DNA of 64,000 nucleotides from a virus. The translations under genes were made by a program, and so were the position numbers. Positions 8,789 through 30,053 of this stretch are shown here, in pieces (position 1 is the first letter of the stretch; the number at the start of each line of letters is the position of its first letter). The notes under the pieces were generated by a model, which saw only the letters and a program-made list of their open reading frames with translations, did not search any database and was not told where the DNA came from. The DNA is taken from positions 1 to 64,000 of IMG/VR virus record IMGVR_UViG_3300031957_002603; one strand, written 5' to 3'.

Positions 8789-9193
8789 ATGTATAATTTT
8801 TTGTATTATAACCAAAAGACTTCCCCTAGGGTTCCTTGGTTCTTTGAGAACTCAAAGGTTCCCGTAATCTTATCGTATTTGGCGCCAATTGACATCTATG
8901 CAATTGCCTTCGGACCTTGGGTCTGGTGTCGTGGCGTGATGGATGAAGAAACGCGCAATCACGAGACGATTCATTATCATCAGCAACTTGAACTCCTGTT
9001 CATCGGGCAATGGATTTTGTATGTGTTTTACTGGCTAAAAGGACTAATTATCTATAGAGACGGCGAGATTGCCTACCGGCAATCGCCCTTTGAGCGGGAA
9101 GCATACGATAACGATCAAAATCTTGATTATTTGAAAACTCGCAAGCCCTACGCATGGAGACATTATCGTGAAGTTGACAACAACCACACTTAA
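8789..9193 (+). CDS. membrane protein with HETIH zinc-type motif
   Basis: A 134-aa protein with AAGGAG 7 nt upstream. Two hydrophobic segments (about 28-46 and 69-90) flank or include NHETIHYHQQLE, an HExxH motif followed at 3 residues by another His and a Glu. The C-terminal YRQSPFEREAYDND adds an acidic stretch that could complete zinc binding. Proteins of this architecture are common in marine phages and some bacteria and are unnamed. Membrane peptidase activity is inferred. Confidence 0.6.
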   Translation: MYNFLYYNQKTSPRVPWFFENSKVPVILSYLAPIDIYAIAFGPWVWCRGVMDEETRNHETIHYHQQLELLFIGQWILYVFYWLKGLIIYRDGEIAYRQSPFEREAYDNDQNLDYLKTRKPYAWRHYREVDNNHT

Positions 9194-9635
9194 GCAAATC
9201 ATTAAAGAGGAATTGGCCAAAGTCATGGCCGAGTATAGAACTCTTCCTCAATTTCCCGAAGGCTTTCCGGAAGACTTTCAAGCAAAGATTCATAGCCTTA
9301 TAAATTCTGGTGACGAACAAAACATTGAAATGGCGCGTTCCTTGATGGATTCATTTGGTGAAGCAGATTATGTCGACAGTTATATTGACTATCAAGAGGT
9401 CGGCACGTCCGAAAAGTTTGGCAATAGAGCCAGAGATTTGAATAAGTCAGTAAGTTTTGATGATGAAATGCTAGCAAAGATTAAATATATAAGAAAGAAA
9501 AGAGATTTAGACGCCGAAGTTAAAGAAAAACTTAAAGCAATTGCTGCTCGAACCGGCGAAAATTATGAAGATTTGTATGATCGCTATCTTGACAATCAAT
9601 TTCATAACGTATCGAATAATTTTTCGGAAGAATAA
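9168..9635 (+). CDS. tagged virion-internal candidate (155 aa)
   Basis: It starts inside the end of the preceding gene (26-bp overlap). The first 22 residues are the recurrent helical tag (MKLTTTTLKQIIKEELAKVM then AE) ending in an xAE site. The rest is charged and helical without a recognised domain; a DEMLAKIKYIRKKRDLDAEV segment is coiled-coil-like. The shared tag with genes 9635, 15550, 22245 and 27414 suggests a common destination, probably the phage head. Function is unknown. Confidence 0.65.
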   Translation: MKLTTTTLKQIIKEELAKVMAEYRTLPQFPEGFPEDFQAKIHSLINSGDEQNIEMARSLMDSFGEADYVDSYIDYQEVGTSEKFGNRARDLNKSVSFDDEMLAKIKYIRKKRDLDAEVKEKLKAIAARTGENYEDLYDRYLDNQFHNVSNNFSEE

Positions 9636-10606
9636 TGAAATTATCAACCAATCAACTTAGCCGCATTGTACAAGAAGAAATAGACAAATTTTTGGCGGAA
9701 ATGTCTAAAGAAGAGGAAAAATTTTTTGGTGATGAAATCAAGGCGCTGGTGGATAATCCCGACGAACTGTATTATGTCAAGAATGTTAAACCTCGCAACC
9801 CTTATGTTGATCTCGAAGAGAAACAGTTCCTAAACCGTCGATGGATTGAAGAGAATGTCGGAAAGTATCTGGGAGGTGGCTCGTTCCGTGATGCTTATCA
9901 AATTAAGTCGCATCCCGACAAGATTCTAAAAATCTCAAATCGTTATCTTCAGCATGACCCGCTGGATGGGCAAGAGTATACAACCATTGCTGAAGAAACT
10001 AACATGCTCGAGATTGAAATGTTCAACAAGTATCCGGGTTACTTTCCCAAGGTTTATATCTCTGACAAAGAAAAGCAGGGAATTCCTCGATGGCTTGTTA
10101 TTGAAAAGGTCGAGGTTATTGAATATCAATCTGAATTTATTCGGCAACTTGTTCGCTCATTTAAATCAATTCCAAAATCTTATAATCTTATGAATAACCT
10201 TATCGCCGAGTATTTGCCAAGTACCTCGGCAGACTTTCCTCCTGCTTCTGGGACTGGTCGTGAAATTGATGCTGAGCAATGGGCATATACTTCATGGATT
10301 GCTGTTGGGTATAATGAGCCTGAGAGATTGAAAGACATTCTAAAAGACCTTCCAGTATGGGATGAGAAATATGGCGACGTCCTCAAACGAGATGTTGATC
10401 AGGTTATTGATGAGGAAATTCTTTTGGATGAAGCAGTCAAGCAAGTTTGGAAAGTTTTGACCTCCGACCAATATCTTGTTAAGTTTTGGGACATGGTGAA
10501 TACTCTCAACATTGAATATAACGAACTTCGTGAGGGAAATGTTGGAACAGATATCGAAACTCGCACCAAGTTCCTAATTATTGATATATCGATATTTGAT
10601 GATTAA
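9635..10606 (+). CDS. protein-kinase-like protein with N-terminal tag
   Basis: A 323-aa protein whose start overlaps the previous stop by 1 nt. Residues 1-22 are the recurrent tag (MKLSTNQLSRIVQEEIDKFL, AE). A kinase-like fold follows: a glycine-rich loop LGGGSFRDAY (79-88), a candidate ATP-binding Lys99 in ILKIS, an ETNMLEIEMF helix with a candidate salt-bridge Glu, a hinge WLVIEKVE, then LREGNVG (298-304) in place of the catalytic HRDxxxxN loop and Asp317 in IIDIS in place of DFG. The catalytic Asp is replaced by Glu300 or absent, so it may be a divergent kinase or pseudokinase. Substrate is unknown. Confidence 0.65.
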   Translation: MKLSTNQLSRIVQEEIDKFLAEMSKEEEKFFGDEIKALVDNPDELYYVKNVKPRNPYVDLEEKQFLNRRWIEENVGKYLGGGSFRDAYQIKSHPDKILKISNRYLQHDPLDGQEYTTIAEETNMLEIEMFNKYPGYFPKVYISDKEKQGIPRWLVIEKVEVIEYQSEFIRQLVRSFKSIPKSYNLMNNLIAEYLPSTSADFPPASGTGREIDAEQWAYTSWIAVGYNEPERLKDILKDLPVWDEKYGDVLKRDVDQVIDEEILLDEAVKQVWKVLTSDQYLVKFWDMVNTLNIEYNELREGNVGTDIETRTKFLIIDISIFDD

Positions 10607-10608
10607 CC

Positions 10609-12204
10609 ATGATTAAAGTAAAAATAAAAAAATCTCTTGCGGAAGGCGGAAATGTATTCGCTGGTAAAACTGCTTCTATTCCTCTTGAGTTTATCCAACC
10701 AACGCTTGACAGATATTATGAAGAACTTGATCGTTTGTTCCCACAACACTCGGACAAGTTTAGGAACTTTCAGCCGCTTGGGTCCGTTGGCAAGAAAGCA
10801 AAATCTGGTGACATTGATCTTGCCGTCAATGTTCGTGAAATGTTCCCAGACGGCGAAGTGAACCCAGAGGACCTTGAATCTTGGGGACTTTCTCCAGACA
10901 AGTGGAATGAAAAACTTGAAAAATTAATTAAAAGAGCAAGAACCTCGACCAAAGGAGAACTTGGGTGGAAGGCTTTCTTGCAATTGCTCGCAGAATATAT
11001 AAATGAGAACTCTGACCTTATTGAGGCAGATCTTAAAAAGATTAAGCCCGGTGCAATGTTTTCTTTGTTCCCTCAATTCAACCCCGAAGGTGAACAGCAA
11101 GATGTCGGTGTCCAGATTGACTGGATGGTTGGCAATGTTGATTGGCTTACCTTTTCTTATTTCTCTGATGCTCCATCAGAAGATGAGCCACTTCTCAAAG
11201 GACTTCATCGTACACAATTGATTCATGCTCTTATATTAGCAATGGACCATTCATTCTCTCATACAGCGGGCGTGAAGAATAAAAAGACAGGCGAAACAGT
11301 TGCTTTCTCAAAAGATGAAATTCTTGACCTTTTGTCTCGCCTATATCGTAACACCATAACAATTGATGATACGCAAAACTTCAACACGCTATATGACTGG
11401 ATGAGTAACATCGATGAGGCGGACCGTAACAAAGCGTTACGCGCTTACCTTAAGATTCTCGACACAACCCGAGGCAATAAAGACCTCGATGGTGAACGCT
11501 GTGGATATATACCCAGAGCGCTTGAGGAAATGTACCTCTCTTTGTTGAAAAATGGACAAATGAGCGGAAGATTTTTATGCAAAGAGGCTAACCCTACCCT
11601 ATGGGCTGCTAAGAATGGTTCTCTCCAAGAATCGCCAAATAACAATGAAAAAATTACCGTTGTGATACCCGGTGGTTTTAAACCTCCACATCGAGGTCAT
11701 GTTGAGATGATTAACCACTTTGCGAATCTCCCCAATGTTGATGAGGTTATTGTCTTCACTGGCTCAAAAGAAAGAGAATCAACCGATGGTTCTATCGTTG
11801 TAACTGCTGAGAAAGCAAGAAAATTATTTAATTTGTTTGACCTCGCTTCGAATGTTAGATTTGGCGTTGTTGCTCAGAGACCAAAGAAAGACGGAAGCAC
11901 ATATGAGAATCCATTCATGGATGCTGTTGGTGTTCTGTTTGATGAAAAGTATGCTGGAAAGAATGTTGCGATTGGTCACCCAACAAAAGATCCAACATAT
12001 GGCGATCGATTTGCTAAAATTGCATCCTATTCGAAGAAGCCGATGGCGGCGAATCTTGTCAAGGTAACACCGGCGGATACAACAGATGGCTTGTCTGCTA
12101 CAGATCTTCGCAATGCTGTACAAAGTGGCGATACAGACGAACTAAAAAGGTTCATCCCAGATGCAATTGCGAAAGATTATTTAAATATTTTATTAAAAAA
12201 ATAA
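10609..12204 (+). CDS. nucleotidyltransferase / cytidylyltransferase-like fusion
   Basis: A 531-aa two-domain protein. The N-terminal half has a Pol-beta-type nucleotidyltransferase signature (PLGSVGKKAKSGDIDLAV: GS followed by DxD, about residues 53-70). The C-terminal part from about 347 is a HIGH-superfamily nucleotidyltransferase: IPGGFKPPHRGHVEM, then a late LSATDLRNAV that corresponds to the second signature (ISxTxLR). Both domains transfer nucleotidyl groups; substrates cannot be deduced. N-terminal IKVKIKKSLAE matches the second recurrent tag type. It directly follows the kinase-like gene (2 nt gap), and a strong promoter lies behind it. Confidence 0.75.
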   Translation: MIKVKIKKSLAEGGNVFAGKTASIPLEFIQPTLDRYYEELDRLFPQHSDKFRNFQPLGSVGKKAKSGDIDLAVNVREMFPDGEVNPEDLESWGLSPDKWNEKLEKLIKRARTSTKGELGWKAFLQLLAEYINENSDLIEADLKKIKPGAMFSLFPQFNPEGEQQDVGVQIDWMVGNVDWLTFSYFSDAPSEDEPLLKGLHRTQLIHALILAMDHSFSHTAGVKNKKTGETVAFSKDEILDLLSRLYRNTITIDDTQNFNTLYDWMSNIDEADRNKALRAYLKILDTTRGNKDLDGERCGYIPRALEEMYLSLLKNGQMSGRFLCKEANPTLWAAKNGSLQESPNNNEKITVVIPGGFKPPHRGHVEMINHFANLPNVDEVIVFTGSKERESTDGSIVVTAEKARKLFNLFDLASNVRFGVVAQRPKKDGSTYENPFMDAVGVLFDEKYAGKNVAIGHPTKDPTYGDRFAKIASYSKKPMAANLVKVTPADTTDGLSATDLRNAVQSGDTDELKRFIPDAIAKDYLNILLKK

Positions 12205-12213
12205 CTTTTTTTC

Positions 12214-12242
12214 TTGACAAACGGCATAAAACATGTTATATT
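12214..12242 (+). promoter_or_regulatory. sigma70-type promoter (TTGACA-17-TG-T-TATATT)
   Basis: TTGACA 12214-12219 and TATATT 12237-12242, spacer 17, with the extended -10 TG. Transcription would begin near 12249 and meet a perfect terminator at 12310-12346, giving an RNA of about 100 nt. Confidence 0.85.
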
Positions 12243-12248
12243 ATATAT

Positions 12249-12346
12249 ATAATATGATTTGGTGTTGCGATCTCCTTAATCGCTGTGTTTGTTTGTGTTG
12301 ACCTCCTTGCCCTCCTGCGATCTAGTTATTGCAGGAGGGTTTTTTT
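12249..12346 (+). ncRNA. candidate small RNA / leader with three CCUCC-type motifs
   Basis: The promoter at 12214 and the terminator at 12310-12346 bound an RNA of about 98 nt. It has a 5-bp hairpin GCGAT (12267-12271)/ATCGC (12279-12283) whose loop shows CTCCTT, a linker with ACCTCCTT (12301-12308), and the terminator whose 5' arm is CCCTCCTGC. The first and second motifs resemble the 3' tail of 16S rRNA (CACCTCCTTA), so the RNA could pair with ribosome-binding sites. It may be a free sRNA or the attenuated leader of the gene at 12347. Confidence 0.5.
12310..12346 (+). terminator. strong intrinsic terminator overlapping the next ribosome site
   Basis: CCCTCCTGC (12310-12318) pairs perfectly with GCAGGAGGG (12331-12339) across a 12-nt loop, followed by seven T. 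The 3' arm AGGAGGG is also the only Shine-Dalgarno site of the gene at 12347. Folding therefore both ends transcription and hides the ribosome site. Confidence 0.9.
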
Positions 12347-13318
12347 ATGTTATTCTTTATCCTGTTCTTTTTATCTTGTCTTAGCGACAATTATATCGTT
12401 CACGAAGTTGAGAAAATTAAATACGAAACGATCACGGAAACTGAAGTTGTTTATGTCGAGGACACGGCTCCTCCACCGCAAGATACATCGTTAGATTTAT
12501 TGCCAATCTGGGTTGATTCGTTCACACAACCGAACTCGATGAATGGAATTGACATTCTTTGGGTCATTGATCGTTCTGGTTCAATGCATGATGAGGCACC
12601 TCAGATCCTAACTGGGATTGAAACAATGATAGCAGCACTCCCAGCCTCCGACTGGCGGCTTGTAATGATTAATATTAGTTCAAATGTATCTGCAATTAGT
12701 CAAGTATTTCCACTTATACCGGGTGACGGGCTCACAGAGGCTTGGAATATGTATAATGGTTTGGGTAATTCTTTTAAAGAAGAAGGTTTTAATGCTGTTT
12801 TTTCATATATGGCTGATAATTCCTATTCACAAACTTGGATGAGAGAAGATGCATCTTTATTAATTGTTTTTGTCTCCGATGAAGACGAGCAAAGTACTAA
12901 TAGATACCCAACGACAACAACATTTATCAACTGGATCAGCATGCAGAGGTCAGATTACCATATAACCTCGATTGTTCACTATGAAGTTCCGCTGTCACAA
13001 TGCAATAATAATACAACTGCGGTTGGTGATCGCTATCTCGAGGCGGTTGATTTGACCGGTGGAACTAAAATAGACATTTGTACAGACGATTGGACGGCAG
13101 GAATCAGTGAAGCACTTAATCAAGTTGAGCCATATGAGTACTATGATCTATCAAAGCGAGTTAAATACCCTCAATACTTACAAGTTTTCTACGATGGGAG
13201 ACCTGCACACCCCGACGAATGGCGCTACGATGCAGCAAATAATCGTGTTTACTTTGGACCTTTGCCAGATGGTGGTGTTTTGGTTGAGATTGCCTACTAT
13301 TATCAACCAACTCACTAA
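12347..13318 (+). CDS. VWA-domain lipoprotein candidate (323 aa)
   Basis: ATG 12347 is chosen because AGGAGGG lies 7 nt upstream. The N-terminus is a short signal-like hydrophobic run (MLFFILFFLSCLSD) with a possible lipobox FLSC. A VWA domain follows: MIDAS DRSGSM (about residues 72-77), then a long alpha/beta stretch with VFVSDEDEQS. The C-terminus (YDGRPAHPDEWRYD ... FGPLPDGGVLVEIAYYY) looks like a beta-sandwich seen at the ends of bacterial VWA lipoproteins. It may bind a surface protein via a metal ion. Expression is gated by the terminator/RBS hairpin. Confidence 0.7.
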   Translation: MLFFILFFLSCLSDNYIVHEVEKIKYETITETEVVYVEDTAPPPQDTSLDLLPIWVDSFTQPNSMNGIDILWVIDRSGSMHDEAPQILTGIETMIAALPASDWRLVMINISSNVSAISQVFPLIPGDGLTEAWNMYNGLGNSFKEEGFNAVFSYMADNSYSQTWMREDASLLIVFVSDEDEQSTNRYPTTTTFINWISMQRSDYHITSIVHYEVPLSQCNNNTTAVGDRYLEAVDLTGGTKIDICTDDWTAGISEALNQVEPYEYYDLSKRVKYPQYLQVFYDGRPAHPDEWRYDAANNRVYFGPLPDGGVLVEIAYYYQPTH

Positions 13319-13335
13319 TTATTGGGGAGAAAATC

Positions 13336-13641
13336 ATGGCAAAAAAAATAAAAGTTCGCATTCTCAAACAAATTGACGAAAAAAAGAAAGATTGTTTTAA
13401 AAATAAGACTTTTGATAGCAAAGTAAAATGTATTATAAAACAAAAAAACCTTTCAAAAGAAAAATCTAGTGCTTATGTTGCCTCTGTTTTAAGAGATAAA
13501 GGCGAGTTAGATGAAGAGTGGTCTAAGTCTGAAAGAAATAAAAGAAAATCAAAATGTGATAACCCAAAAGGGTTCACAATGAAGCAATTTTGCAAAAACC
13601 AGCGTACTAAGTCCAAAAAAAATGAAAAGAAAAATGAATAA
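13336..13641 (+). CDS. basic small phage protein (101 aa)
   Basis: ATG 13336 with GGGGAG upstream. The product is strongly basic (Lys-rich) with four Cys and a conserved-looking DSKVKCIIKQKNLSKEKSS AYVASVLRDKGEL segment also known from marine phage proteins. The start IKVRILKQIDE matches the second recurrent tag type (IK-V/I-K/R-I, then xDE). The charge suggests DNA association inside the head. It is in the unit with the HAD-Nudix gene downstream. Confidence 0.6.
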   Translation: MAKKIKVRILKQIDEKKKDCFKNKTFDSKVKCIIKQKNLSKEKSSAYVASVLRDKGELDEEWSKSERNKRKSKCDNPKGFTMKQFCKNQRTKSKKNEKKNE

Positions 13642-13672
13642 TATTGTCTAAAATCGTTACAAAGGAACTAAA

Positions 13673-15403
13673 ATGATTAAAATTCGCATACTCAATGAAA
13701 ATATTGTTACAGAACAGCAAGAAAAAATCACTCTTGATGAAGCAATAGACTTTTATGACAATAATATCAACACATTTGTCGCCATGGCTAATGGTGAACA
13801 GCAAAAAGACCCACAATTGTGGAAGAAATTCGAAAGAATAGCATCAGATTGTTATAATACTCTACAAAAAGGCTATGATGAGATCAAGAAATGGTCAAAT
13901 AATCAAGATCCTCGAGCCATTTCCTATGTAGAAAGGTTAGGTTCATTTTTTAAGAAATTTACATCGTTCTTGAAAGGCGAAGAAGTCAAAAATTCTGAAC
14001 TTGTAAGCGTACCAATTATGCAAAAAAGTTCTTTTATTATTCCAAAAAACGGTGATGGTCTATCAGACGAAGAATTGAAAAAAGTTTTTTATGTACTTGA
14101 GAGTTATACAAAGTGGTATGAGAATCTCAAAGGCAAATTAGGCTCTTGGTCTCAAAGAAATCTCCCAACCATGAGAAAAATGATGGGATTACGAGAAGGG
14201 TTCATTACAGAACAAGAGAAAATCACGCTCAGTCAGATCGTTGGAGAGAATTCAGTCATATCTTTTGACTTTGACAACACATTAGTGAAGTCATATCCTG
14301 ATTTTGACGACGATGGTGAACTAATTTACATCAATGGGGGCTCAAATGCAACCATGATTAACCTTATGAAGCATTTAATTGATGATCCAAGCAAAAAAGT
14401 TTACCTTGTGACCTCAAGAAATGAAGAAATGGAGCAAAAAACACCTGAACAATCAATAAAAGCACAACTTGATAGGCTCGGAGTGCAGCCAGATGGTATA
14501 TATTTCACTAATTCTCAGCCAAAAGTCACAAAATTGAAGGAATTAGGGGTCGAAATACACTTTGATGACGACAGAATGGAGCACGGAGATATTCAAGGCA
14601 GTGGAATTCAATCATTTTACCCTGATGATTTCCTCGAAGACACCAATCAGGTGTCAAAAGTAGTCGCTGTGACGCTTGATAACAAGGTATTGGTATTAAA
14701 AAGAGCAGATACAGGCGAAATTGACATACCGGGTGGTCATGGAAAGAGCGGAGAGACACCTGAATTTACTGCAATTAGAGAAACTTTAGAAGAAACTGGT
14801 CTTGATTTGTTCGGAATTAAAGAAATTATGTCTAAAGAAGTTAATTTTAAAGGTAGAAATGAACAAATTACTTATTTTTATGCTAAATTGAACAACACTT
14901 CAGAGATGCTAATGGACGATGTCGACCTAGATACCCATGAGAACACAGAATTTTACTTCGTTCAGCCTCAAAATATTGATGAATACATGTCAAATGCGAC
15001 AAATAATTTAAAAAATGTCTCAAATGAGATTAAATCATTGACAATTGATGAACATACAGAACCTTTTCAACGAAAAATGGCCGCAAAACACCGAAAATAC
15101 ATGAACCAAATGTTTAAAAGTGGCGGTTTTAAGAAAAAAATGGGTCCATATAACCAAAATCCGCCAATGGGACGCTCAAAATCGGCTCCACCGGGTTTTG
15201 GAGCAATTGGTGAGGCAAAAAAACAAGAAAAAACGTCTATTAAAGTCAAAATTAACCAAAATCTAGACGAAAAACGCAAAAAGAAGCGAAAAAAGCGCAA
15301 AAAACGCAAAAAAACAGCAAAATATGGCGGTTATTACCCCTATTTTGACCTTTATGACGGCTCCGGAGGCGATGCAGGTGGAGATGGAGGCGGCGGTGAG
15401 TGA
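13673..15403 (+). CDS. HAD phosphatase - Nudix hydrolase fusion with basic tail
   Basis: A 576-aa protein. Residues 1-15 are IKIRILNENIVTE, a tag-like start ending in VTE|Q. A helical region follows to about 180 and ends with FITE|Q. A HAD domain starts at ISFDFDNT (Asp199, Asp201) with VTSRN and DDDRMEHGD later. A complete Nudix box GHGKSGE-x7-RETLEETGL lies at about 355-377. The C-terminus has an IKVKINQNLDE segment, a run of about 16 Lys/Arg residues and an acidic Gly tail. HAD and Nudix enzymes clear phosphorylated metabolites; substrates are unknown. The two (V/I)TE|QEKITL repeats look like protease sites dividing the protein. Confidence 0.78.
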   Translation: MIKIRILNENIVTEQQEKITLDEAIDFYDNNINTFVAMANGEQQKDPQLWKKFERIASDCYNTLQKGYDEIKKWSNNQDPRAISYVERLGSFFKKFTSFLKGEEVKNSELVSVPIMQKSSFIIPKNGDGLSDEELKKVFYVLESYTKWYENLKGKLGSWSQRNLPTMRKMMGLREGFITEQEKITLSQIVGENSVISFDFDNTLVKSYPDFDDDGELIYINGGSNATMINLMKHLIDDPSKKVYLVTSRNEEMEQKTPEQSIKAQLDRLGVQPDGIYFTNSQPKVTKLKELGVEIHFDDDRMEHGDIQGSGIQSFYPDDFLEDTNQVSKVVAVTLDNKVLVLKRADTGEIDIPGGHGKSGETPEFTAIRETLEETGLDLFGIKEIMSKEVNFKGRNEQITYFYAKLNNTSEMLMDDVDLDTHENTEFYFVQPQNIDEYMSNATNNLKNVSNEIKSLTIDEHTEPFQRKMAAKHRKYMNQMFKSGGFKKKMGPYNQNPPMGRSKSAPPGFGAIGEAKKQEKTSIKVKINQNLDEKRKKKRKKRKKRKKTAKYGGYYPYFDLYDGSGGDAGGDGGGGE

Positions 15404-15409
15404 TAAATC

Positions 15410-15553
15410 ATGCCGTTTTTAATCAAAAATAGCCTCTATTTAGTCGTTTTTGGACTCCTTTGGCTACTTATCTATGTAACCCTAGGCTTTGAAACGACCT
15501 TAATTTTATTGCTTATTATGGCTAATTTTACCCTTATTTGGAGAAAACAATGA
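15410..15553 (+). CDS. small membrane protein (47 aa)
   Basis: ATG 15410, 6 nt after the previous stop, gives 47 residues with two hydrophobic helices (about 8-27 and 31-43) and a short basic end (WRKQ). Its stop overlaps the next start (ATGA). No clear ribosome site beyond the upstream GGTGAGTGA; translation is probably coupled. Function is unknown; a holin-like role cannot be excluded. Confidence 0.45.
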   Translation: MPFLIKNSLYLVVFGLLWLLIYVTLGFETTLILLLIMANFTLIWRKQ

Positions 15554-15933
15554 AAATCAGCAAAAAAAGAATCCTCGAGATCATTAAAGAAGAACTTCAA
15601 GAAGGTCATATGATGGATTATGGCCCTGAACATGATAAATATTTTGATTATACTGATGATGAAGGCGGAATGGCTAAGAGACAATTGTACAAAACAGCAA
15701 AATATGCTATGATGCTACATGATTCACTTCAAGATGAGGATCAACTTGAAGGTTGGGTGCAATCAAAGATCACAAAAGCAGCAGATTATATGGGAACTGT
15801 TGCTCATTACCTAGAATATGAGATGGGGATGGAAATGTATGATCCAGAAACGGAATCAGAAGAAGAAATGGATTCAGAAGAAGAAATAGAAGTTGTCACT
15901 GGTGACATGATTCCAATGGATGAAGAATACTGA
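15550..15933 (+). CDS. conserved phage virion-type protein with tag (127 aa)
   Basis: ATG 15550 follows TTGGAGAAAACA and is preferred over the earlier in-frame TTG. Residues 1-16 are the tag MKISKKRILEIIKEEL. The centre (TAKYAMMLHDSLQDEDQLEGW VQSKITKAADYMGTVAHYLEYE) matches a small helical protein that I recognise as widespread in marine T4-like phages. It ends in a very acidic tail (EEEMDSEEEIE). It is likely packaged or structural; its precise role is unknown. Confidence 0.72.
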   Translation: MKISKKRILEIIKEELQEGHMMDYGPEHDKYFDYTDDEGGMAKRQLYKTAKYAMMLHDSLQDEDQLEGWVQSKITKAADYMGTVAHYLEYEMGMEMYDPETESEEEMDSEEEIEVVTGDMIPMDEEY

Positions 15934-16734: not shown

Positions 16735-17541
16735 ATGCCTTGTAAGATTATTAATAACTCTGGTCTCGAAATATCAGGCTTTGAAGATATGATTCAATCC
16801 CTTGTTTCATTCTCACAAGATCGTTTTGGTTTTGAAAAGCCGCCATCTTTATTTCTCAATTCAGATTCCGATAATGCTACAAACCTTTTGGGCAAAACTG
16901 CTTATTATGATCCTGAAAATCAAGAGGTTCATGTTTATACAACTGATCGTCATCCAAAAGATATTATGCGATCAATTTCTCATGAACTTGTTCACCATAA
17001 TCAGAACTGCCAAGGGAATCTTGGAGGAGAACATTATTCAGGCGAAGGTTATGCTCAAAAAGACCCTCACATGAGAAAAATGGAACAAGAAGCATATTTA
17101 CAAGGGAATATGTGTTTTCGTGACTGGGAAGACGGTTACAAACAAAAACAACAAGTTTACAATGAATGGAGAACTAAAACAATGTCTTTAAATGAATGGA
17201 AAAACAAAGAACTATTTGATCTTTTGTCTCAAAAATGGGGATTTTCTAAAAATGTAATTACCGAAGCCAAAGGTGAAAAAGGTGATGCTGATCCTCTTGA
17301 TGGAGAAAGAGCAAAATTTGACAAAGACCATGACGGTGTACCCGATGGTGCTGATAAGGATAAAGATGATCCTGAAATTCAAGAAGATCTTAACGAAGGC
17401 GAAGAACAACTTGACGAAGAAGAGATCGAAGAGATTGCTGCCAAAAGATTTGGTAATGAAGACCGCGACGTTGGTCGCAATAGAATGCACGCTGATAGAA
17501 TGCACGAAGTTGTAAAAAGATTTAAAAAACTTATAAAATAA
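16735..17541 (+). CDS. HExxH protein with calcium-type repeat (268 aa)
   Basis: The N-terminal half holds a zinc-peptidase motif SHELVHHNQNCQG (about residues 82-94) and a later EQEAYLQGN whose Glu could be a third ligand. Next comes SLNEWKNKELFDLLSQKWGF, then NVITE|A, a site like those in other tagged proteins. After this is a DKDHDGVPDGADKDKDD stretch typical of calcium-binding EF-hand/thrombospondin-type-3 loops and an acidic region. It overlaps the next gene by 1 nt. A structural or host-acting peptidase in the virion is plausible. Confidence 0.65.
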   Translation: MPCKIINNSGLEISGFEDMIQSLVSFSQDRFGFEKPPSLFLNSDSDNATNLLGKTAYYDPENQEVHVYTTDRHPKDIMRSISHELVHHNQNCQGNLGGEHYSGEGYAQKDPHMRKMEQEAYLQGNMCFRDWEDGYKQKQQVYNEWRTKTMSLNEWKNKELFDLLSQKWGFSKNVITEAKGEKGDADPLDGERAKFDKDHDGVPDGADKDKDDPEIQEDLNEGEEQLDEEEIEEIAAKRFGNEDRDVGRNRMHADRMHEVVKRFKKLIK

Positions 17542-18467
17542 TGAGTAAAATTATTGAAATTAAAACATTAAAACAATTGTTCGAACTTTCTACAATGGCA
17601 GGAGGTTCGGTCGGAGGCTACTCAACACCCGAGGACGACAAGATGAAAAGAGAAGATATCGTAACAGAACAAAAGTTACGCAGTTACATTCGTAACAAAA
17701 TTAATGAGTCCTATAAAAGACAAAGGACCCAACAACTTAACGAAGAAGCAAAACTTCGACAAATTATTAGATCCATTCTTAAAGAGTCTGATATCTCTGA
17801 TATTCATCCTCATCGTTCAACTGGTATTAATGTTCTTGAAGATCTCCTCAAGAAAATGATTCCAACTCTTCGCACTGATTATAAGCGTTTGACTACATCA
17901 AAAGAACAGCGTGACTCTTTTCGTGCTCACATCGTTAATGCAATTAAAAAATCTTTATTGCCCTCGCTTGTTAACGACAAGTATGTTCAAGGTGATAATG
18001 TTGATCCCGGCATGCTTATGGCGGAGCCCGGTGGTGATGCTGAGGTTGATATCCCACCAGATCCAGAACTAGACGCTGAGGTTGATGATGAACTTGATGC
18101 AGAATTAGAGGATGAACTTCTTGAAGTAGACATCGATATTGATATCGAATCAGACCCAGACCCTGACAAGAAAGTTGATGCAGGTCTTGGTGACGAAGAG
18201 CCTAACGAAGAAGAAGAGTTTGGTTCAGGTATCGAAAATCAAGGTTTTGATGAGACCGGTAGAAACATGGCCTTTACCTGTTTCAAAAAAGTTCAGCAAT
18301 ATATTTTAGATTCATATGACCTCCTGCGTGATCCAAAGGATAAAAAAGTGTTTGTTGATTACTTGATAACAAATACCAAGTTGTATCTGGATAAGTTTGA
18401 AGACGAACTTCAGAATACAGTCGAAGAACCAACTACTCCAGAATACGAAAATACTAAGGGTGTATAA
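17541..18467 (+). CDS. acidic phage protein with internal tag-like repeats (308 aa)
   Basis: The start overlaps the previous stop. The N-terminus has LSTMAGGSVGGYSTPEDD, a motif I recognise from marine phage proteins, then EDIVTE|Q, KLRSYIRNKINE and KLRQIIRSILKE, which are degenerate copies of the tag helix followed by an E. The middle (about 155-235) is extremely acidic (Asp/Glu-rich). The C-terminal 75 residues are helical (FKKVQQYILDSYDLLRD). It is likely head-internal or scaffold-like. Followed by an AT-rich gap 18468-18569 with no gene. Confidence 0.6.
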   Translation: MSKIIEIKTLKQLFELSTMAGGSVGGYSTPEDDKMKREDIVTEQKLRSYIRNKINESYKRQRTQQLNEEAKLRQIIRSILKESDISDIHPHRSTGINVLEDLLKKMIPTLRTDYKRLTTSKEQRDSFRAHIVNAIKKSLLPSLVNDKYVQGDNVDPGMLMAEPGGDAEVDIPPDPELDAEVDDELDAELEDELLEVDIDIDIESDPDPDKKVDAGLGDEEPNEEEEFGSGIENQGFDETGRNMAFTCFKKVQQYILDSYDLLRDPKDKKVFVDYLITNTKLYLDKFEDELQNTVEEPTTPEYENTKGV

Positions 18468-19541: not shown

Positions 19542-21683
19542 ATGCTTATATCAGAAATTAAACGAAGAACATTTTGCAAATTGCTTGGAGTCTTAGGACT
19601 CTCCGGGATGGGATGTAATATTGATTATAGCCTTGGCCATCTCAAAGGTGAAAATGAGGCTGGTGAGCCCTTACCAAAATGCATTCAAAATCCGCAGTTT
19701 GAGCCTGCTTTTGATGATCCAATCTGGCGAGAAGGCAATGTCAAACTTGATGATTTTATTCAGAGTATCCCTGATAATGATTTTGTTTTTTCAAAATATG
19801 AAAATGATGAATTGGTCATTTTAATTCAAAATGTTCCAATTGATGCTGACATTTTTAATGCTAGACATGTTGCATCATCTGGTAATAATGTTTTTTCTGA
19901 AGAGCAAATAGCAAATTATTATGATTTAGATTCAGATGATCCAAAAGTTTTAATTTCTGTTGAGATGAAATTACCGCTCCAAATAAAAGACGGCGAATAT
20001 TATGTTAAATCTTTTGTAGATACTGGTGGTAATTTTTATACAATACCACAGAGAAATTCATCAGAATGCTCAGGGGATTATATTGCATGGCTTGAACCTA
20101 AGTTATATGAATCGGTGAGCAATATGATTGACGAAGTTATTGAAGAAAAAAAGAAAAAAAAGAAGAAAAAATCATCTGGTAAAAAAGATGCTTGTTATCA
20201 TAAAGTGAGATCACGCTATGATGTGTGGCCTTCTGCTTATGCTTCTGGCGCTCTCGTAAAATGCCGCAAGGTTGGTGCTAAGAACTGGGGTAATAAATCC
20301 AAGAACGAAGAATTCATACCCGGTGGTGAATCTTCAAAATATGGTGACGTAACAGTCGAAGAAATGATCTCAAAGATAGCCCAAGAGCACGGTGTCCCTG
20401 TTGAGAAGATTCAAGACGAATTCAAGATGGGTGTTGAAGAAGAAATGGAACACGCTGAAGAAGAAATGATTGCTCAAGAAATTACCTTAGATCATCTGGT
20501 TGAAGATCCTGAGTATTATTCTAAACTCGATAAATTACAATTAGAAGAAATTTATATTGTTGAAGAAAAATCTGAACTTACACCTGAAAATCTTGAAAAA
20601 ATCTTGAGAGATGAAGGCGGGGCTTCTGGTATGGACCCTTTCAAAAAAGCAATCGATGCCTCTGAAGAAGAGATCAAAAAGGCTCTCGATAAGATGTCAA
20701 ATGTCGGTATGCACGAAGATGGCGACTATATACTAGAGGATGATAAAGAAATTATTATCAAAGAAGAGGGAGTCATCGATGAAGAACAAGAAGAGACAAC
20801 GCTTGATGAGAAACGCAAAAAGCGAAAGAAAGCCGGAACAGAATCTTCCAAAGAGTCCAATCTTAGAGACTGGTTCAAACGCAAGGGTGCAAAAGGCTCT
20901 AAAGGAGGCTGGGTTGATTGCAACGCTCCCGACGGAAAAGGAGGATACAAGTCCTGCGGTCGAGGAAGCGGAGAAAAAAGAAAAAGATACCCAGCCTGTC
21001 GCCCCACACCTTCGGCTTGTAAAGAGCGTGGAAGAGGCAAATCATGGGGAAAGAAGGGATCAAAACGAAGAAAGTCAAGAAGAAATGAAAACCTTCTCAG
21101 AACGCTGGTTAGAGAAGAAGCAGAAAAGACAATCTTCGGTAAGACAATCTCAGAAGGACTTAGGTTTCACATTACTAATGACATGCCTATTAGGGATAAT
21201 GTTTATCGCCACGGTACTAGCAGATATTTTTCTCTCGTAAACGAAGCACGTGATCTCTGGAAAGAAGGCAAACTGAATCTTGATGAAGAAGATATCGAGA
21301 TCATGGAATCTGATCTCGGACAATTCGGGTCATTTGCAGGGCAACAAGTTCCTCTTGATTTTCCAATGATGATTGACGAGTCTCTTGACGAAGCCAAAAA
21401 GAAAAAGAAGAAAGATCCTCCAATCGGAAAGCCAACTAAGAACACTGGCGGAGGAAAGAAATATAAAGTTTTTGTCCGCAACCCAAAAACGGGCAAGATC
21501 AAGAAAATCACCTATGGTGACTCCAAAGGTGGTCTCAAGGGCAACTGGAACAATGCCGAAGCACGCAAGTCATTTGCTGCTCGTCACAATTGCAAAGACA
21601 AGAAAGACAGAACCAAAGCAGGATACTGGGCTTGTCGAGCACACAAAGATTTTGGAACGAACGTTCCGGGGAGATTTTGGTAA
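19542..21683 (+). CDS. Lys-rich modular protein (713 aa), probable processed polyprotein
   Basis: ATG 19542 is used; longer starts lie inside the aldolase gene. The N-terminus has twin Arg and a short hydrophobic run (KRRTFCKLLGVLGLSGMGC) like a Tat lipoprotein signal. Modules follow: an unknown domain (30-195); IEE then eight Lys (203-210) and a Cys-containing CYHKVRSRYDVWPSAYASG module; an acidic region (275-415); LDE then KRKKRKK (421-430) and a Cys/Gly/Arg-rich module; a tag-like LLRTLVREEAE (518-528); LDE then AKKKKKK (615-624) and a C-terminal module with SFAARHNCKDKKD. These modules occur separately in other phages and giant viruses. Cleavage at the LDE/IEE sites is inferred. Confidence 0.7.
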   Translation: MLISEIKRRTFCKLLGVLGLSGMGCNIDYSLGHLKGENEAGEPLPKCIQNPQFEPAFDDPIWREGNVKLDDFIQSIPDNDFVFSKYENDELVILIQNVPIDADIFNARHVASSGNNVFSEEQIANYYDLDSDDPKVLISVEMKLPLQIKDGEYYVKSFVDTGGNFYTIPQRNSSECSGDYIAWLEPKLYESVSNMIDEVIEEKKKKKKKKSSGKKDACYHKVRSRYDVWPSAYASGALVKCRKVGAKNWGNKSKNEEFIPGGESSKYGDVTVEEMISKIAQEHGVPVEKIQDEFKMGVEEEMEHAEEEMIAQEITLDHLVEDPEYYSKLDKLQLEEIYIVEEKSELTPENLEKILRDEGGASGMDPFKKAIDASEEEIKKALDKMSNVGMHEDGDYILEDDKEIIIKEEGVIDEEQEETTLDEKRKKRKKAGTESSKESNLRDWFKRKGAKGSKGGWVDCNAPDGKGGYKSCGRGSGEKRKRYPACRPTPSACKERGRGKSWGKKGSKRRKSRRNENLLRTLVREEAEKTIFGKTISEGLRFHITNDMPIRDNVYRHGTSRYFSLVNEARDLWKEGKLNLDEEDIEIMESDLGQFGSFAGQQVPLDFPMMIDESLDEAKKKKKKDPPIGKPTKNTGGGKKYKVFVRNPKTGKIKKITYGDSKGGLKGNWNNAEARKSFAARHNCKDKKDRTKAGYWACRAHKDFGTNVPGRFW

Positions 21684-21937: not shown

Positions 21938-22248
21938 TTTTGTTTTTTCTTGCCTGTGTCGCTCAAGCCGATGAAATGATTGCTGATGAACCACCATCAG
22001 AAATCATTGAACTTAACGACACAGAGATGCCTGAACATCCAGAAGATCCTGCTAAAGAACAGATTATGATTGATATGTTGTCAATCGAACTTTTCTTGAC
22101 TGATAAGAAGAATTTCGAATTATATTGCAAAGGAATCAAATGGGAACAACCATCGATCAAGATTTATAAAAAAGAATTGGTCTCGCAACTTCCTGCGAAT
22201 TGTGTGGCCAAAGTTCCCGCTCTTGACCCAACTGAGGAAGAAAAATGA
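21934..22248 (+). CDS. small secreted/lipoprotein candidate (104 aa)
   Basis: Overlaps the previous gene by 4 nt (ATGA). The N-terminus MILFFLACVAQADE is a signal-like run with a possible FLAC lipobox. The mature part is acidic, with two Cys. It could be an outer-membrane spanin partner of the coiled-coil protein upstream, or a virion-associated exported protein. No family is recognised. Confidence 0.45.
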   Translation: MILFFLACVAQADEMIADEPPSEIIELNDTEMPEHPEDPAKEQIMIDMLSIELFLTDKKNFELYCKGIKWEQPSIKIYKKELVSQLPANCVAKVPALDPTEEEK

Positions 22249-22547
22249 ATCTCACAAAAGAACAATTGCGTAAAATTATCAACGAAGAAATCAATAATTT
22301 TATTGCAGAGCAAGTGATCGAACCAAATGAAAAATACAACGAAGCAATCAGAGATATTCTTTCTGATATTGAAGATAGCAAGACTTTTCGTCTTAAGAAG
22401 GGTCGCTTCAGCAATTATTTCAAAACCATCAAATATCCGAATCACCCAGCCCGTGATCTTGCAGATGGTTACGAAGTTCAGGAATACAGTCGCCCCGACT
22501 ATGACGAGTACGTAATTAAAAAAGAAGATGAGCGATTTTCCATTTAA
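22245..22547 (+). CDS. tagged small protein (100 aa)
   Basis: It overlaps the previous gene by 4 nt. The first 21 residues are the tag (MNLTKEQLRKIINEEINNF, IAE) followed by Q, giving a good IAE|Q site. The remaining 79 residues have a helix and a Tyr-rich end (GYEVQEYSRPDYDEY). It is the shortest clear tag bearer, so it is useful for defining the tag. Function is unknown. Confidence 0.65.
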   Translation: MNLTKEQLRKIINEEINNFIAEQVIEPNEKYNEAIRDILSDIEDSKTFRLKKGRFSNYFKTIKYPNHPARDLADGYEVQEYSRPDYDEYVIKKEDERFSI

Positions 22548-23795: not shown

Positions 23796-23806
23796 CATGT
23801 TATAAT
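23778..23806 (+). promoter_or_regulatory. sigma70 promoter with perfect -10 (TTGACA-17-TG-T-TATAAT)
   Basis: TTGACA 23778-23783 and TATAAT 23801-23806, spacer 17, extended -10 TG. Both hexamers are consensus. The -35 lies inside the end of uvdE. Confidence 0.9.
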
Positions 23807-23847
23807 ATATACACTAAGGATTAATACAAACAAATATAGGAGACCTT

Positions 23848-25505: not shown

Positions 25506-25544
25506 TTTAAAATCACACTATTTATAACGTGTGAGGATATGAAT

Positions 25545-25868: not shown

Positions 25869-25875
25869 TTACAAT

Positions 25876-26388
25876 ATGAAACTGTATTCTCTTAAACTTG
25901 ATGCTGCTTGGAGACCTATTGAAGTGATTGATTCATTTAAAGCGTTTAGCATGTGTCGAAGTGGAAGAGCGAACGTTGTTGAGGATTATAATGTCAAGGC
26001 GCATGGTAGTAGCATGTTCCCTGCTGTTATAGTCCTCAAGTCGTATGTGCGCAAACATGAATTTATTTTATCTTGCACAAGAAGAAACGTATATGCAAGA
26101 GATAATTATACCTGTCAATATTGCAATAAACAGGCAATTTCTAAAGCGGAACTTACATTAGACCATGTGTACCCTAAATCACGCGGGGGACCAAAAACTT
26201 GGGATAATATAGTAACTTCTTGCCACAAATGCAACATTACAAAGGGAGCCCGAACCCCAAAAGAAGCGGGCATGATTTTACTCAAAGAACCTCGGAGACC
26301 CAAAGCAACATTTATAGATTTTTATTCTCTTAAGAATGTGCCAAAACAATGGTCTCCGTACATTTATTTATATAAGGAGCAGAAATGA
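25876..26388 (+). CDS. HNH endonuclease
   Basis: A 170-aa protein. The catalytic module is at about residues 75-120: RDNYTCQYCNK (first CxxC), LTLDHVYPKSRGG (His-containing strand), NIVTSCHKCNITKG (Asn plus second CxxC). The N-terminal 70 residues resemble the extra region of HNH proteins found near phage and bacterial genes. It could be a homing-type or a host-acting nuclease. It overlaps the next gene by 4 nt. Confidence 0.88.
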   Translation: MKLYSLKLDAAWRPIEVIDSFKAFSMCRSGRANVVEDYNVKAHGSSMFPAVIVLKSYVRKHEFILSCTRRNVYARDNYTCQYCNKQAISKAELTLDHVYPKSRGGPKTWDNIVTSCHKCNITKGARTPKEAGMILLKEPRRPKATFIDFYSLKNVPKQWSPYIYLYKEQK

Positions 26389-26831
26389 GTGAGAAAAGAA
26401 AGGTAATCGCCATCTCGGGCGGTTTTGATCCGGTTCATATCGGTCACGTTCAAATGATCGAAGCCGCTGCTGAACTTGGCGATGTTATGGTTATCGTTAA
26501 TTCAGATGATTGGCTTCTGCGAAAGAAAGGCTATATCTTTATGCCATGGGATGAGAAGGCTTACATTATGTCTCAGTTTAAAGGTGTAACAAAAGTTGTT
26601 TCGGTTGATGATACCGATGGAACGGTTTGTGAGGCTCTACGAACTCATCGTCCTGATGCCTTTGCAAACGGCGGCGACCGAAAGACCAACAATACTCCTG
26701 AGATGGATGTCTGTGAAGAACTTGGCATCGAGATGCTCTGGAATATCGGAGGCGATAAAATTCAATCTTCATCAGATCTTGTCAACAAGGCAAAGTGGGG
26801 AAAGATGGTAATTAACGGTGTTGAAATCTAA
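26385..26831 (+). CDS. RfaE2-like cytidylyltransferase-family protein
   Basis: A 148-aa single-domain HIGH nucleotidyltransferase: SGGFDPVHIGHVQMIEAA at residues 11-28, VIVNSDDWLLRKKG, and a late GGDKIQSSSDL that corresponds to the second signature. Size and motifs match the nucleotidyltransferase domain of heptose-phosphate adenylyltransferase (RfaE2/HldE-C) and glycerol-3-phosphate cytidylyltransferase. It would activate a sugar- or polyol-phosphate with a nucleotide, which fits the glycan cluster. The exact substrate is unclear. Confidence 0.78.
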   Translation: MSEKRKVIAISGGFDPVHIGHVQMIEAAAELGDVMVIVNSDDWLLRKKGYIFMPWDEKAYIMSQFKGVTKVVSVDDTDGTVCEALRTHRPDAFANGGDRKTNNTPEMDVCEELGIEMLWNIGGDKIQSSSDLVNKAKWGKMVINGVEI

Positions 26832-26850
26832 TTAATGCGAGGATCGTTTT

Positions 26851-27417
26851 ATGTCTAAGCAAATGAAAGTTATTATGGAGAACTGGCGAAGCAACTTGCT
26901 TTTAGAGCAAGAGGCGTTGTCTATCCACGAAGAACTTCTAGAACAATTCACAAATGAAATCAAGATCATTAGAGAGTCTTCTAATGATTTAAATGAAGTT
27001 TTATCAAAAGTAGCCGATTTTGCTAAAAGAGCATACAATACTTATAGCGATATTAAGAAGAATGCAATCGAATCAGTGTTGACAAAAGCAATAGATTCGG
27101 CAATCAAGGTTTTAGATTTTTTGGAAGAAAAGTTAAATCAAGAAAGACCCGGATTGATAAATAACATTAAATCTTTTCTTGAGAAACTTAAACAAGAAAG
27201 TAATATGGCAATTGCTGTTTCTATTGTTTCTATTTTGATTGGGCTTTTAACTGGTGAGGCATTTGATGCTGTTGAGAGCGTATTGAATATTTTGGGAGCA
27301 TCCGAGGATATTTTAAACGCATACGAAGCGATTTCACAGATTAGCGACACAGTAGATGTGAAAAACGTTGTTGACAAAACAGGACAACTAACGAGAATAA
27401 CGGAAGTTTTAACATGA
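26851..27417 (+). CDS. helical protein with ENWR-type N-terminus (188 aa)
   Basis: The N-terminus KVIMENWRSNLLLE|Q is a known start of marine phage virion proteins (MENWRxxL) and ends in an LLE|Q protease-like site, a third tag variant. The rest is nearly all helix with a hydrophobic Ala/Ile-rich stretch at 117-135 (MAIAVSIVSILIGLLTGE) that could insert in a membrane. It overlaps the tagged 879-aa gene by 4 nt. A membrane-active internal protein is possible. Confidence 0.55.
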   Translation: MSKQMKVIMENWRSNLLLEQEALSIHEELLEQFTNEIKIIRESSNDLNEVLSKVADFAKRAYNTYSDIKKNAIESVLTKAIDSAIKVLDFLEEKLNQERPGLINNIKSFLEKLKQESNMAIAVSIVSILIGLLTGEAFDAVESVLNILGASEDILNAYEAISQISDTVDVKNVVDKTGQLTRITEVLT

Positions 27418-30053
27418 ATATAACAAAACAAAGAATTCTTGAAATTATCAAAGAAGAAATGGAAGCCGCAAAGCAAGACGGCTCAAACACAAAGCAGAAA
27501 CTTCGCAAAGACTTTTTGACTGTTGCTAAAGAATTCATCCCCGATGCTGATATGGTCTCGACCGAGGTTGAATTGACCTCCGCTCTTATGAATAAGATTT
27601 TAAAGAAAGCAGGAGAGGCCGGAACCTCCGCAACTCAATTGAAAAGATTAAATGATATTGCTGGGAAACTTCTTGCTGAACAAAGAGTTTCTGCCGAACA
27701 AGCAAAACAAACAGTCATACCAAATATTTACCTTCTTTTTACTGATCCTGAGTATAAAACAGCCCCAGCAGACCAAAAGATTGAAACTTTGGGAGAACTA
27801 TTGGCACAAATTAATGCCCCTGAACTTGATGAGCCATCACTTGAAATTATATTGTCGGAACTTTACGATGTTGTAGAGGATTCCGTGATGTCAGATGACG
27901 AAAAAGTACAGAAAGCAGAGGAAATTGTAAAAAGATTTAAAGATTCCGGAGAACCCGAAGCCGAAGTTCCAAGTGAATCAGAGCCCGCACCTGAAGCAGG
28001 AGCCGAAGAACAACCGCAAGGTCCAATGACCAAATACATAGATACAGATTTAATGAAGACAATTCAGAGTCGAAACAAAGAGACATATGATGGTCTAGTA
28101 CTATTTTTACAAAAGTTGTTGGATGGTAATTTAATCAAAGAGTCGCTTGTTGGACTTGTTCGAGGTTTAGACCTTAAAGGTTCTCAAATCACCACTATTT
28201 TAAAAGATATTAAGAACATTGATGAAGAAAAATACAAAGCAATAATCAAGTTCTTCAGTAATGCGGAATATACAGAACAATTTGTTAAAATGATTAATCC
28301 GGATGCAACTATCCCAACTGGAGATCAAGAACAACCAAAAGAAGGCGAGGTTGAAGTTGTTGATGATGGAAGAAAATATACCTACACCGATGAAAACATC
28401 CAAGAACTTAAAAAAGCATACGAAGCATTCGAAGATGGCTTTATGACAGCACCAGATCGTGTTACACAAGAGCAATATTGGATGGGCTTAAGAGATGCTC
28501 TTAATGCAATCGGCCAATTTAGAACATTAACTAGACGACGACAGCAAGCATTTAAAGAACAATTAATCAATATCTTTGAGCAAGAGAATCAAAAGAACTT
28601 CAAAAGAATTGTTGTTGACATCGAGAGACTACGACGTGATCTTAATGACACGGATGACACACTTGTAAAATATCTTGAAGCGGCCAAAGAAGGAAAATAC
28701 GAATCACAAGCCTATCTTGCAAGGTTCTTGGCTGAACTAAAGGACGTTCAAAATTCTGTTAAGAGAACCGTAGAGGATGTTCAAAAGGTTGGCGGTTTTA
28801 AACTAAACGAACAGGAAGAAGAGACTGCTGAACCACAAGAAGAAACCTTTGAACAAAAAGTAGCAAAGGTCCGAGGTGTATACGAAAAAATTAAAAGACA
28901 ATTCTCGGAGACTTTAACACAGTTAGATAAAACAAATGCTCCTGATCTTGAGGAATTCTCCGGAAAAATCAAAGATGCGTATGATCAACTTGACAGCATT
29001 CGCTATTTGTTTTCTAGAGTTGGTGCCTTTGCAAAAACATCAGATAAAGATGTTGAAGAATTACAACAAGATTATAAAATCGCAAAAAAAGTCTTAACGA
29101 AAAGTATGTCTCGAGCACTTTCTGATTTAAGAGCAGGTGAAATTGATCCCACCCGGTTGAGCATATTTTTGAAACAATTGCTTGGCGTAGCAAATTGGAT
29201 CTCAACATATTTTGGTGTTGGGCCCGATGAGCAATACAGAGTTCAAGGTGTGACGGTCCAATCTGATGGAAAAGACAAAAAAGAAACCGCTGAAAATACG
29301 GATGGTTCTGGAGGCACAGCCTTTACACCCGAGGCTGTTGAAAAAGAGGAAACCGAAGAAGCACCTTCTGATGCTGAAGGTGATGAGCAAGACTCTGAAG
29401 CGAGTAAAAAATTATATTCTGATATTAGAAAATTTTTAGCAAATTCACAAACTAAATCTTTCGTAACAATGTCAGATGATATTATAAAGCAATTAAATAT
29501 TGAAGAAATTAATTTTGATGAAATAAAGAAAATTTTACAATCTTATAAAACAAAAATTACTGAACCTCTTGAAGAAAAACTTGATAATGAAACTCTGAAA
29601 AAAAGACTTGAAGGTTTGACCGAAATCTTTGAAATTATTAATACAAAAATTAAACAAACCGAAATAGATGAAATGCTTGAAGAAATAAAGCAAAATACAA
29701 CATTTTATAAAAATACTTTTATAACTATAAAAAAACTATATAGTGAATTAGCAAATGCTGTCAATTTTTTCAAAAGTGGTGTTCTTGATAAAGCAAAAGA
29801 ATTTTTCAATAAATCAAAAGAAACAATAAAAGATTTTGGTAGAAAAGCACTTGACGTTACAACTGGAAAAGTTGGCGACATTATAGTAGCACTAGCCGAT
29901 AAAATATTGCCCGATTTTGATATTGGCAATATTGACATCGATTTCGGCGATATTGACGGCAGAAAGAAAACCGAAAAAAATGAATCTCTATTGGAGAGAT
30001 TAATAAAACAAGAATTGAAGGTGCTAAATGGCAAAAAAATGGTTCGTAATTGA
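27414..30053 (+). CDS. large tagged helical protein (879 aa)
   Basis: Residues 1-16 are the tag MNITKQRILEIIKEEM. The protein is almost entirely helical and coiled-coil-like, interrupted by acidic Pro-rich linkers at about 180-200, 310-325, 463-480 and 620-665 (for example EPEAEVPSESEPAPEAG). The C-terminus has an IDIDFGDIDG stretch and a second tag-like helix SLLERLIKQELKVLN. No catalytic motif is seen. Size, tag and composition suggest a head-packaged or scaffold-like protein. It overlaps the PhoH gene by 26 bp. Confidence 0.6.
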   Translation: MNITKQRILEIIKEEMEAAKQDGSNTKQKLRKDFLTVAKEFIPDADMVSTEVELTSALMNKILKKAGEAGTSATQLKRLNDIAGKLLAEQRVSAEQAKQTVIPNIYLLFTDPEYKTAPADQKIETLGELLAQINAPELDEPSLEIILSELYDVVEDSVMSDDEKVQKAEEIVKRFKDSGEPEAEVPSESEPAPEAGAEEQPQGPMTKYIDTDLMKTIQSRNKETYDGLVLFLQKLLDGNLIKESLVGLVRGLDLKGSQITTILKDIKNIDEEKYKAIIKFFSNAEYTEQFVKMINPDATIPTGDQEQPKEGEVEVVDDGRKYTYTDENIQELKKAYEAFEDGFMTAPDRVTQEQYWMGLRDALNAIGQFRTLTRRRQQAFKEQLINIFEQENQKNFKRIVVDIERLRRDLNDTDDTLVKYLEAAKEGKYESQAYLARFLAELKDVQNSVKRTVEDVQKVGGFKLNEQEEETAEPQEETFEQKVAKVRGVYEKIKRQFSETLTQLDKTNAPDLEEFSGKIKDAYDQLDSIRYLFSRVGAFAKTSDKDVEELQQDYKIAKKVLTKSMSRALSDLRAGEIDPTRLSIFLKQLLGVANWISTYFGVGPDEQYRVQGVTVQSDGKDKKETAENTDGSGGTAFTPEAVEKEETEEAPSDAEGDEQDSEASKKLYSDIRKFLANSQTKSFVTMSDDIIKQLNIEEINFDEIKKILQSYKTKITEPLEEKLDNETLKKRLEGLTEIFEIINTKIKQTEIDEMLEEIKQNTTFYKNTFITIKKLYSELANAVNFFKSGVLDKAKEFFNKSKETIKDFGRKALDVTTGKVGDIIVALADKILPDFDIGNIDIDFGDIDGRKKTEKNESLLERLIKQELKVLNGKKMVRN

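Follow-up and report, generated by a model that had tools for sequence, protein, structure and literature searches.

Short N-terminal leaders with a prohead-protease-like end site on otherwise unrelated proteins of T4-like phages: candidate capsid-targeting propeptides

This analysis concerns short N-terminal leaders encoded by the IMG/VR virus record IMGVR_UViG_3300031957_002603, which is 131,465 bases long. The window, that is, the whole stretch of DNA under analysis, comprises bases 1 to 64,000 of this record, and the remainder of the record was also read. The record represents a T4-like phage, encoding a terminase and a T4-type portal; sheath-like and tube-like genes are also present, recognised by their sequence only. 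Five genes of the window open with the motif MK(I/L)(T/S)x3Lx2IIxEE(L/I), usually followed by LxE, which we call the class 1 leader or tag. They are listed below, where an arrow marks the predicted cleavage site and profile scores compare with a top reversed-sequence decoy of 6.3 bits.

9168 to 9233, plus strand: class 1 leader MKLTTTTLKQIIKEELAKVMAE↓Y of gene 9168-9635 (155 residues, function unassigned, GTG start; profile 26.7 bits)
9635 to 9700, plus strand: class 1 leader MKLSTNQLSRIVQEEIDKFLAE↓M of gene 9635-10606 (323 residues, without a family match)
15550 to 15603, plus strand: class 1 leader MKISKKRILEIIKEELQE↓G of gene 15550-15933 (a domain common to other class 1-tagged proteins)
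22245 to 22310, plus strand: class 1 leader MNLTKEQLRKIINEEINNFIAE↓Q of gene 22245-22547 (profile 24.6 bits)
27414 to 27479, plus strand: class 1 leader MNITKQRILEIIKEEMEAAKQD of gene 27414-30053 (879 residues; no clear xE site near residue 22; profile 15.8 bits)

From these five genes and several degenerate copies, the initial annotation had proposed a head-targeting tag that is carried by otherwise unrelated proteins and removed by a gp21-like prohead protease. The checks it had suggested included a search for such a protease and a look at whether related phages carry the tag. All five N-termini were confirmed, and three further class 1 bearers were found in the rest of the record, at 90366, 98567 and 104800, the last of which immediately precedes the protease gene. 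In IMG/VR, the DNA pattern of class 1 matched at least 120 stretches with at least 173 tags, and the reversed pattern, at equal degeneracy, gave no match in the whole collection. Similarly, 25 tag-bearing records contained only forward-motif matches and no control matches, and no tag was matched in 22 random contigs. The tag is carried by related phages at no fewer than 115 loci. Across 165 unique tags, conservation drops to background beyond residue 22 and the protein bodies are unrelated, as had been claimed for the bearers in the window. Pair identity among the tags is 0.72, 0.81 and 0.50 at codon positions 1, 2 and 3, respectively; third positions are free to vary, which indicates that the peptide, and not the DNA, is conserved. 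No published description of the motif was found in a search limited to the open-access literature.

The tag also occurs in 25 stretches of bacterial and archaeal genomes, in a collection of 257 billion bases. Two entries, a 101-kb contig filed under Halobacteriovorax (L217, PBIO01000025.1) with ten tags and a 306-kb contig filed under Methylococcaceae (L214, NHDW01000006.1) with twelve, each hold every tag of the entry on that one contig, which is consistent with phage contigs binned together with a host.

The closing residues of the tags could be analysed independently of how the tags were collected, since the collecting pattern fixed residues up to position 15 only. In class 1 tags, a hydrophobic residue at position 19 is coupled to glutamate at 21 (odds ratio (OR) 21, p = 2e-10), one at 20 to glutamate at 22 (OR 15, p = 2e-12), and one at 17 to glutamate at 19 (OR 33, p = 1e-9). 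These three couplings persist when one tag per locus is used. Off-register pairs show no positive coupling except for a weak 18/21 signal, which disappears with one tag per locus. LxE therefore shifts as one unit, and the face of a helix alone does not account for it. Moreover, A, G or S directly follows the glutamate in 46 of 97 class 1 tags, against a background of 24% (p = 4e-7). The initial annotation had placed an xAE-like site at the end of the tag; this description fits most tags, in the form of a floating LxE unit, but not gene 27414.

The record encodes a Peptidase_S77 prohead protease outside the window, at record positions 105152-105772 (Pfam E = 2e-31; 109.5 bits against a cut-off of 27), and a gp23-type capsid protein at record position 113367 (Pfam, 1.7e-73). 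A scaffold-like protein is encoded at record position 112182. The protease is less than 60% identical to that of any cultured phage, with best matches of about 43-53%. In the gp23 proteins of the phages compared, a conserved LLxE↓(A/S), in general (L/V/I)xE mostly before A or S, lies at the T4 cleavage position FLTE↓AEIGG. On the basis of this alignment, the S77 protease of the record is predicted to cleave after (L/I)xE, and the closing (L/I/V)xE of the leaders, with A, G or S behind it, resembles the gp23 cleavage site in the same phages.

Class 1, an amphipathic helix, is one of several leader classes, which are 12-22 residues long and mostly terminate in (L/I/V)xE. Class 3, MKLIMENWR(K)(F/Y)LxE, is a second widespread class, as widespread as class 1 among the IMG/VR matches listed, and its LxE is likewise a coupled unit (12/14, OR 21, p = 4e-11). 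Class 2, MIKVKIKxxLxE, is carried by gene 10609 of the window and gene 97119 of the record, with looser forms on 13673 and 116771. Matches in an exact-pattern scan with MIKVKIK were mostly due to chance and do not establish a wide spread of class 2; support for this class therefore comes from its exchange with class 3 in two families. The leaders of classes 2 and 3 in the window are as follows.

10609 to 10644, plus strand: class 2 leader MIKVKIKKSLAE of gene 10609-12204 (nucleotidyltransferase-like; in homologs, GGN(V/I)F follows a class 3 leader or a bare M)
13336 to 13380, plus strand: class 2-like leader MAKKIKVRILKQIDE of gene 13336-13641 (identified by eye)
13673 to 13714, plus strand: class 2 leader MIKIRILNENIVTE of gene 13673-15403 (HAD-like and NUDIX domains)
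26851 to 26907, plus strand: class 3 leader MSKQMKVIMENWRSNLLLE of gene 26851-27417

The last of these had been described as an LLE↓Q variant of the common tag; the leader is present, but it belongs to class 3, separate from class 1.

Homologous proteins exchange these leaders precisely at the predicted site. In family A, to which window gene 10609 belongs, the members begin MIKVKIKKSLAE↓GGNVFAG, MKLIMETWRKFVAE↓GGNVFKG and MKLIMENWRKYLQE↓GGNIFAG, and the homolog in the cultured Flavobacterium phage immuto is leaderless, M↓GGNVFSS, which indirectly supports the predicted loss of the leader from the mature virion protein. In family C, a class 1 protein encoded beside the protease, MKLSREDLERMIKEETEDLLGE↓KANPDEFDPARFP, corresponds to a class 3 protein, MKTIMEGWRKFESLIE↓KADPSKLDLKRFP, with 43% identity over 280 residues. 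Family D pairs MKITNKQLRQIIKEELNRVLRE↓NMGLKMFVLVGPPSVGKST with MSYKLIVERWNRFVNE↓AEENKKKIFVLVGPPSVGKST. Families B (record gene 97119) and F are similar, some of their members having a few extra residues past the site. At other loci (L340, L355, L367), the NUDIX domain of gene 13673-15403 forms a stand-alone protein that bears a class 3-like leader. An ortholog of 9635 in a relative, reached through a neighbouring gene where a search by peptide pattern gave none, has only 6 of 21 leader residues identical yet keeps the leader pattern, and its body is nearly identical from MSKEEE on. This exchange of leaders, with homology that begins exactly at the site, is decisively the strongest evidence in favour of capsid-targeting propeptides, as read from sequence.

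The tags are associated with the head module. Peptidase_S77, the gp21-like protease that had been sought, is encoded by 29 of the 49 tag-bearing contigs of at least 30 kb, compared with 4 of 22 random contigs (p = 0.002), and gp23 by 30 of the 49. Among contigs of at least 100 kb, S77 is found in 15 of 18 with class 1, 7 of 8 with class 3 and 2 of 6 random ones. In the 20 tag contigs without S77, a T4 portal gene is present in just 3, two of which have it at the contig end; most of these contigs are fragments that miss the head module.

A small core gene, at record position 105772 in this phage, lies downstream of the protease gene, adjacent to it or one to two genes on, and is kept in most relatives. 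Its product starts with M(K/N)K..LK...KP(L/I)(I/V)KEC(I/L).E(V/I)(L/I)xE(E/D)G, and at two loci it reads MKITKSELKSIVKECLVEILGE↓G and MKITKQQLKIIVKECLVEILSE↓G, which is practically a class 1 tag. The model of the core protein has a helix at residues 3-24 (predicted local distance difference test (pLDDT) about 80). The N-terminal helix of this conserved core protein is probably the source of class 1, or else the model that class 1 imitates.

The head operon also holds, directly after the core gene, a gene for a small basic bS21-like ribosomal protein (record 106194-106400, L005). bS21-like genes hold the equivalent place in most relatives, and the annotation of Mel-JY01 includes an RpsU gene near the protease.

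The cargo is poor in recognisable families. A Pfam match was obtained for 2 of 55 tagged class 1 proteins (pentapeptide repeats and FliG_C), neither of them a replication enzyme, versus about 13 of 54 untagged genes from those contigs, among them thymidylate kinase, dUTPase and a gp32-like protein (p = 0.002); the untagged set is imperfectly matched in length (median of 184 versus 159 residues). The initial annotation had regarded tags on clearly cytoplasmic enzymes as speaking against its proposal, and none was found among the 55 class 1 proteins sampled. Bearers of class 3 include acetyltransferases, an M23 peptidase, P-loop kinase-like proteins and a possible DNA methylase, and those in the window include the nucleotidyltransferase-like protein of 10609 and the NUDIX protein of 13673. 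We infer that this make-up fits packaged proteins that act early in the host. The kinase-like reading of 9635, made by eye in the initial annotation, was not borne out: Pfam gave nothing significant, and an AlphaFold model built with two sequences reached a pLDDT of 41.7.

Comparable systems are known from cultured phages. In T4, a capsid targeting sequence (CTS) is borne by the internal proteins IPI, IPII, IPIII and Alt, and T4 places this leader on a small number of such proteins. Some of them act on the host as soon as infection begins. The T4 protease gp21 cuts after (L/I)xE, and the internal proteins of T4 enter the head by means of a 10-residue leader (PMC9026906). The leader MKTYQEFIAE occurs twice in T4. 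The leaders described here resemble the CTS in being short, N-terminal and placed on unrelated proteins, in ending with (L/I)xE, in coexisting with a gp21-type protease and in the use of one leader on several genes; in addition, the (F/Y)LxE↓ end of class 3 resembles EFIAE↓ of T4. The leaders differ from the CTS in that classes 1 and 2 do not have its sequence and class 1 has twice its length. Moreover, one and the same cargo is found with different leader classes, and each genome has more bearers, among them multi-domain enzymes and fusions. The processing system likewise shares with T4 gp21 and gp23 the protease family and a gp23-type protein with (L/V/I)xE↓(A/S) at the aligned position, whereas the protease is diverged from those of cultured phages to the degree given above and its activity here is predicted from sequence. 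In giant phages of the phiKZ and SPN3US type, a prohead protease removes N-terminal propeptides whose presumed role is to direct ejection proteins into the head (PMC5694885), but most of these propeptides exceed 100 residues, and that paper does not describe them as a shared, exchangeable motif. The T4 prohead core protein gp67 (L432:7782-8024) contains a class 1-like segment, TIDLIKEEKIAIARNFLIE↓G, which might be a distant origin of the class 1 helix; we note it as a lead only. Unlike class 1, the gp67 copy is internal and single.

Taken together, we consider it highly probable that this T4-like phage group uses the tags as capsid-targeting propeptides, which come in several classes and are cut by the S77 protease. 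As the head assembles, the leader would attach its protein to the prohead core and scaffold; the phage's own gp21-family protease would cut after xE, and the freed protein would stay in the head with the DNA and enter the next host. Cargo domains are exchanged between leader classes, and internal tags may represent leaders retained when two cargo genes fuse. The head-targeting proposal of the initial annotation is thereby supported by the protease, the gp23-like site and the exchange at the site, with loading and cleavage as its predicted steps. With less assurance, though we lean towards it, the large, mostly uncultured group may use a few interchangeable labels, one apparently copied from its own prohead core protein, for loading a fast-changing set of enzymes (nucleotidyltransferases, NUDIX and P-loop enzymes, acetyltransferases and pentapeptide-repeat proteins) into its heads and bringing them to the next host. 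If true, this would provide a sequence rule for reading the virion cargo of uncultured phages: with a recognisable leader, the injected first-strike proteins of very many of them could be listed from sequence, many orphan genes now labelled hypothetical would be offered a class of function, and a choice of leaders might become available for packing foreign proteins into such heads.

Several observations weigh against this interpretation. The cultured relatives immuto, Mel-JY01 and RM378 have no match to the tag pattern, and immuto carries just the shorter variants MKKSQLRQIIKEAL and MKKSELVKLIKEEL. In contig G022, which bears just one tag, a T4 portal gene is present at an internal position and S77 has no match. 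Under the strict pattern, tags show only a modest enrichment close to the protease, so that the link to the protease rests on the core gene instead. Finally, about 40% of class 1 tags, including that of 27414, lack (L/I/V/M/F)xE ending at residue 19, 21 or 22. Such tags without a clear LxE would suit an uncleaved helix that docks onto the scaffold, the inner wall of the capsid or another phage complex, with LxE as its acidic end, as would the tag-like copies inside and at the C-terminus of proteins and the prediction that class 1 is helical to its end (a weak model for 9635, and the core-protein model). We regard such a docking helix as unlikely, given that LxE moves as a unit among residues 19, 21 and 22 with no matching rise in off-register pairs, that the residue after the glutamate resembles the gp23 site, and that a class without this helix also ends in LxE and replaces it at exactly that residue.

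Two other explanations are less likely still. A gene-start module that spreads and is conserved as DNA (ribosome-binding site and first codons) for expression or recombination, its peptide having no role, would agree with tagged genes that often lie in runs of up to five within one 15-kb stretch and, in many cases, have purine-rich upstream stretches resembling ribosome-binding sites. It is very improbable in view of third codon positions that differ freely while residues stay, of unrelated leader classes that share the end site, and of the 9635 ortholog pair. We give an equally small chance to a tag that routes proteins to the host membrane, a replication compartment, degradation or a partner-binding pathway: the helix is amphipathic and most bearers have no assigned function, but the association with the S77 and gp23 head module speaks against it, as do the protease-like site at the tag end and the occurrence of the same helix on the core gene next to the protease.

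The copies of the tag that lie away from the N-terminus in the window are given below.

17673 to 17786, plus strand: two degenerate tag-like helices within gene 17541-18467, with the ends INE↓S and ILKE↓S (weak)
21084 to 21155, plus strand: tag-like helix NENLLRTLVREEAEKTIFGKTISE↓G in gene 19542-21683 (precedes a domain that is separately tagged elsewhere)
29979 to 30050, plus strand: degenerate tag-like C-terminus NESLLERLIKQELKVLNGKKMVRN of the 879-residue protein of gene 27414

With the tag profile, which is too strict for internal copies, neither the two copies in 17541 nor the C-terminal one of 27414 scored above the decoys, while the copy in 19542, also reported initially, is backed by domain homology. 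At another locus (L014), one protein joins two cargo domains, each of which has its own tag elsewhere, and the second keeps its preceding tag-like helix; in 19542, this second domain follows NENLLRTLVREEAEKTIFGKTISE↓G. Based on this shared architecture, the internal copy in 19542 can be read as a leader kept after fusion.

The product of 19542-21683 is a mosaic that contains DUF5661, basic linkers after LDE (TLDE↓KRKKRKK and SLDE↓AKKKKKK) and domains that are separate in other phages; it may be processed at several LxE sites. Elsewhere in the window, an open reading frame with a TTG start at 12329-13318 has an N-terminus resembling that of lipoproteins, together with a von Willebrand-like segment, LWVIDRSGSM, recognised by eye and odd in a phage. 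Between 32937 and 52639, about 20 kb are occupied by glycosyltransferase-like and nucleotide-sugar genes, and a comparable cluster is found in immuto. The G+C content is 0.46-0.49 at window positions 1-8000 and about 0.30-0.40 thereafter.

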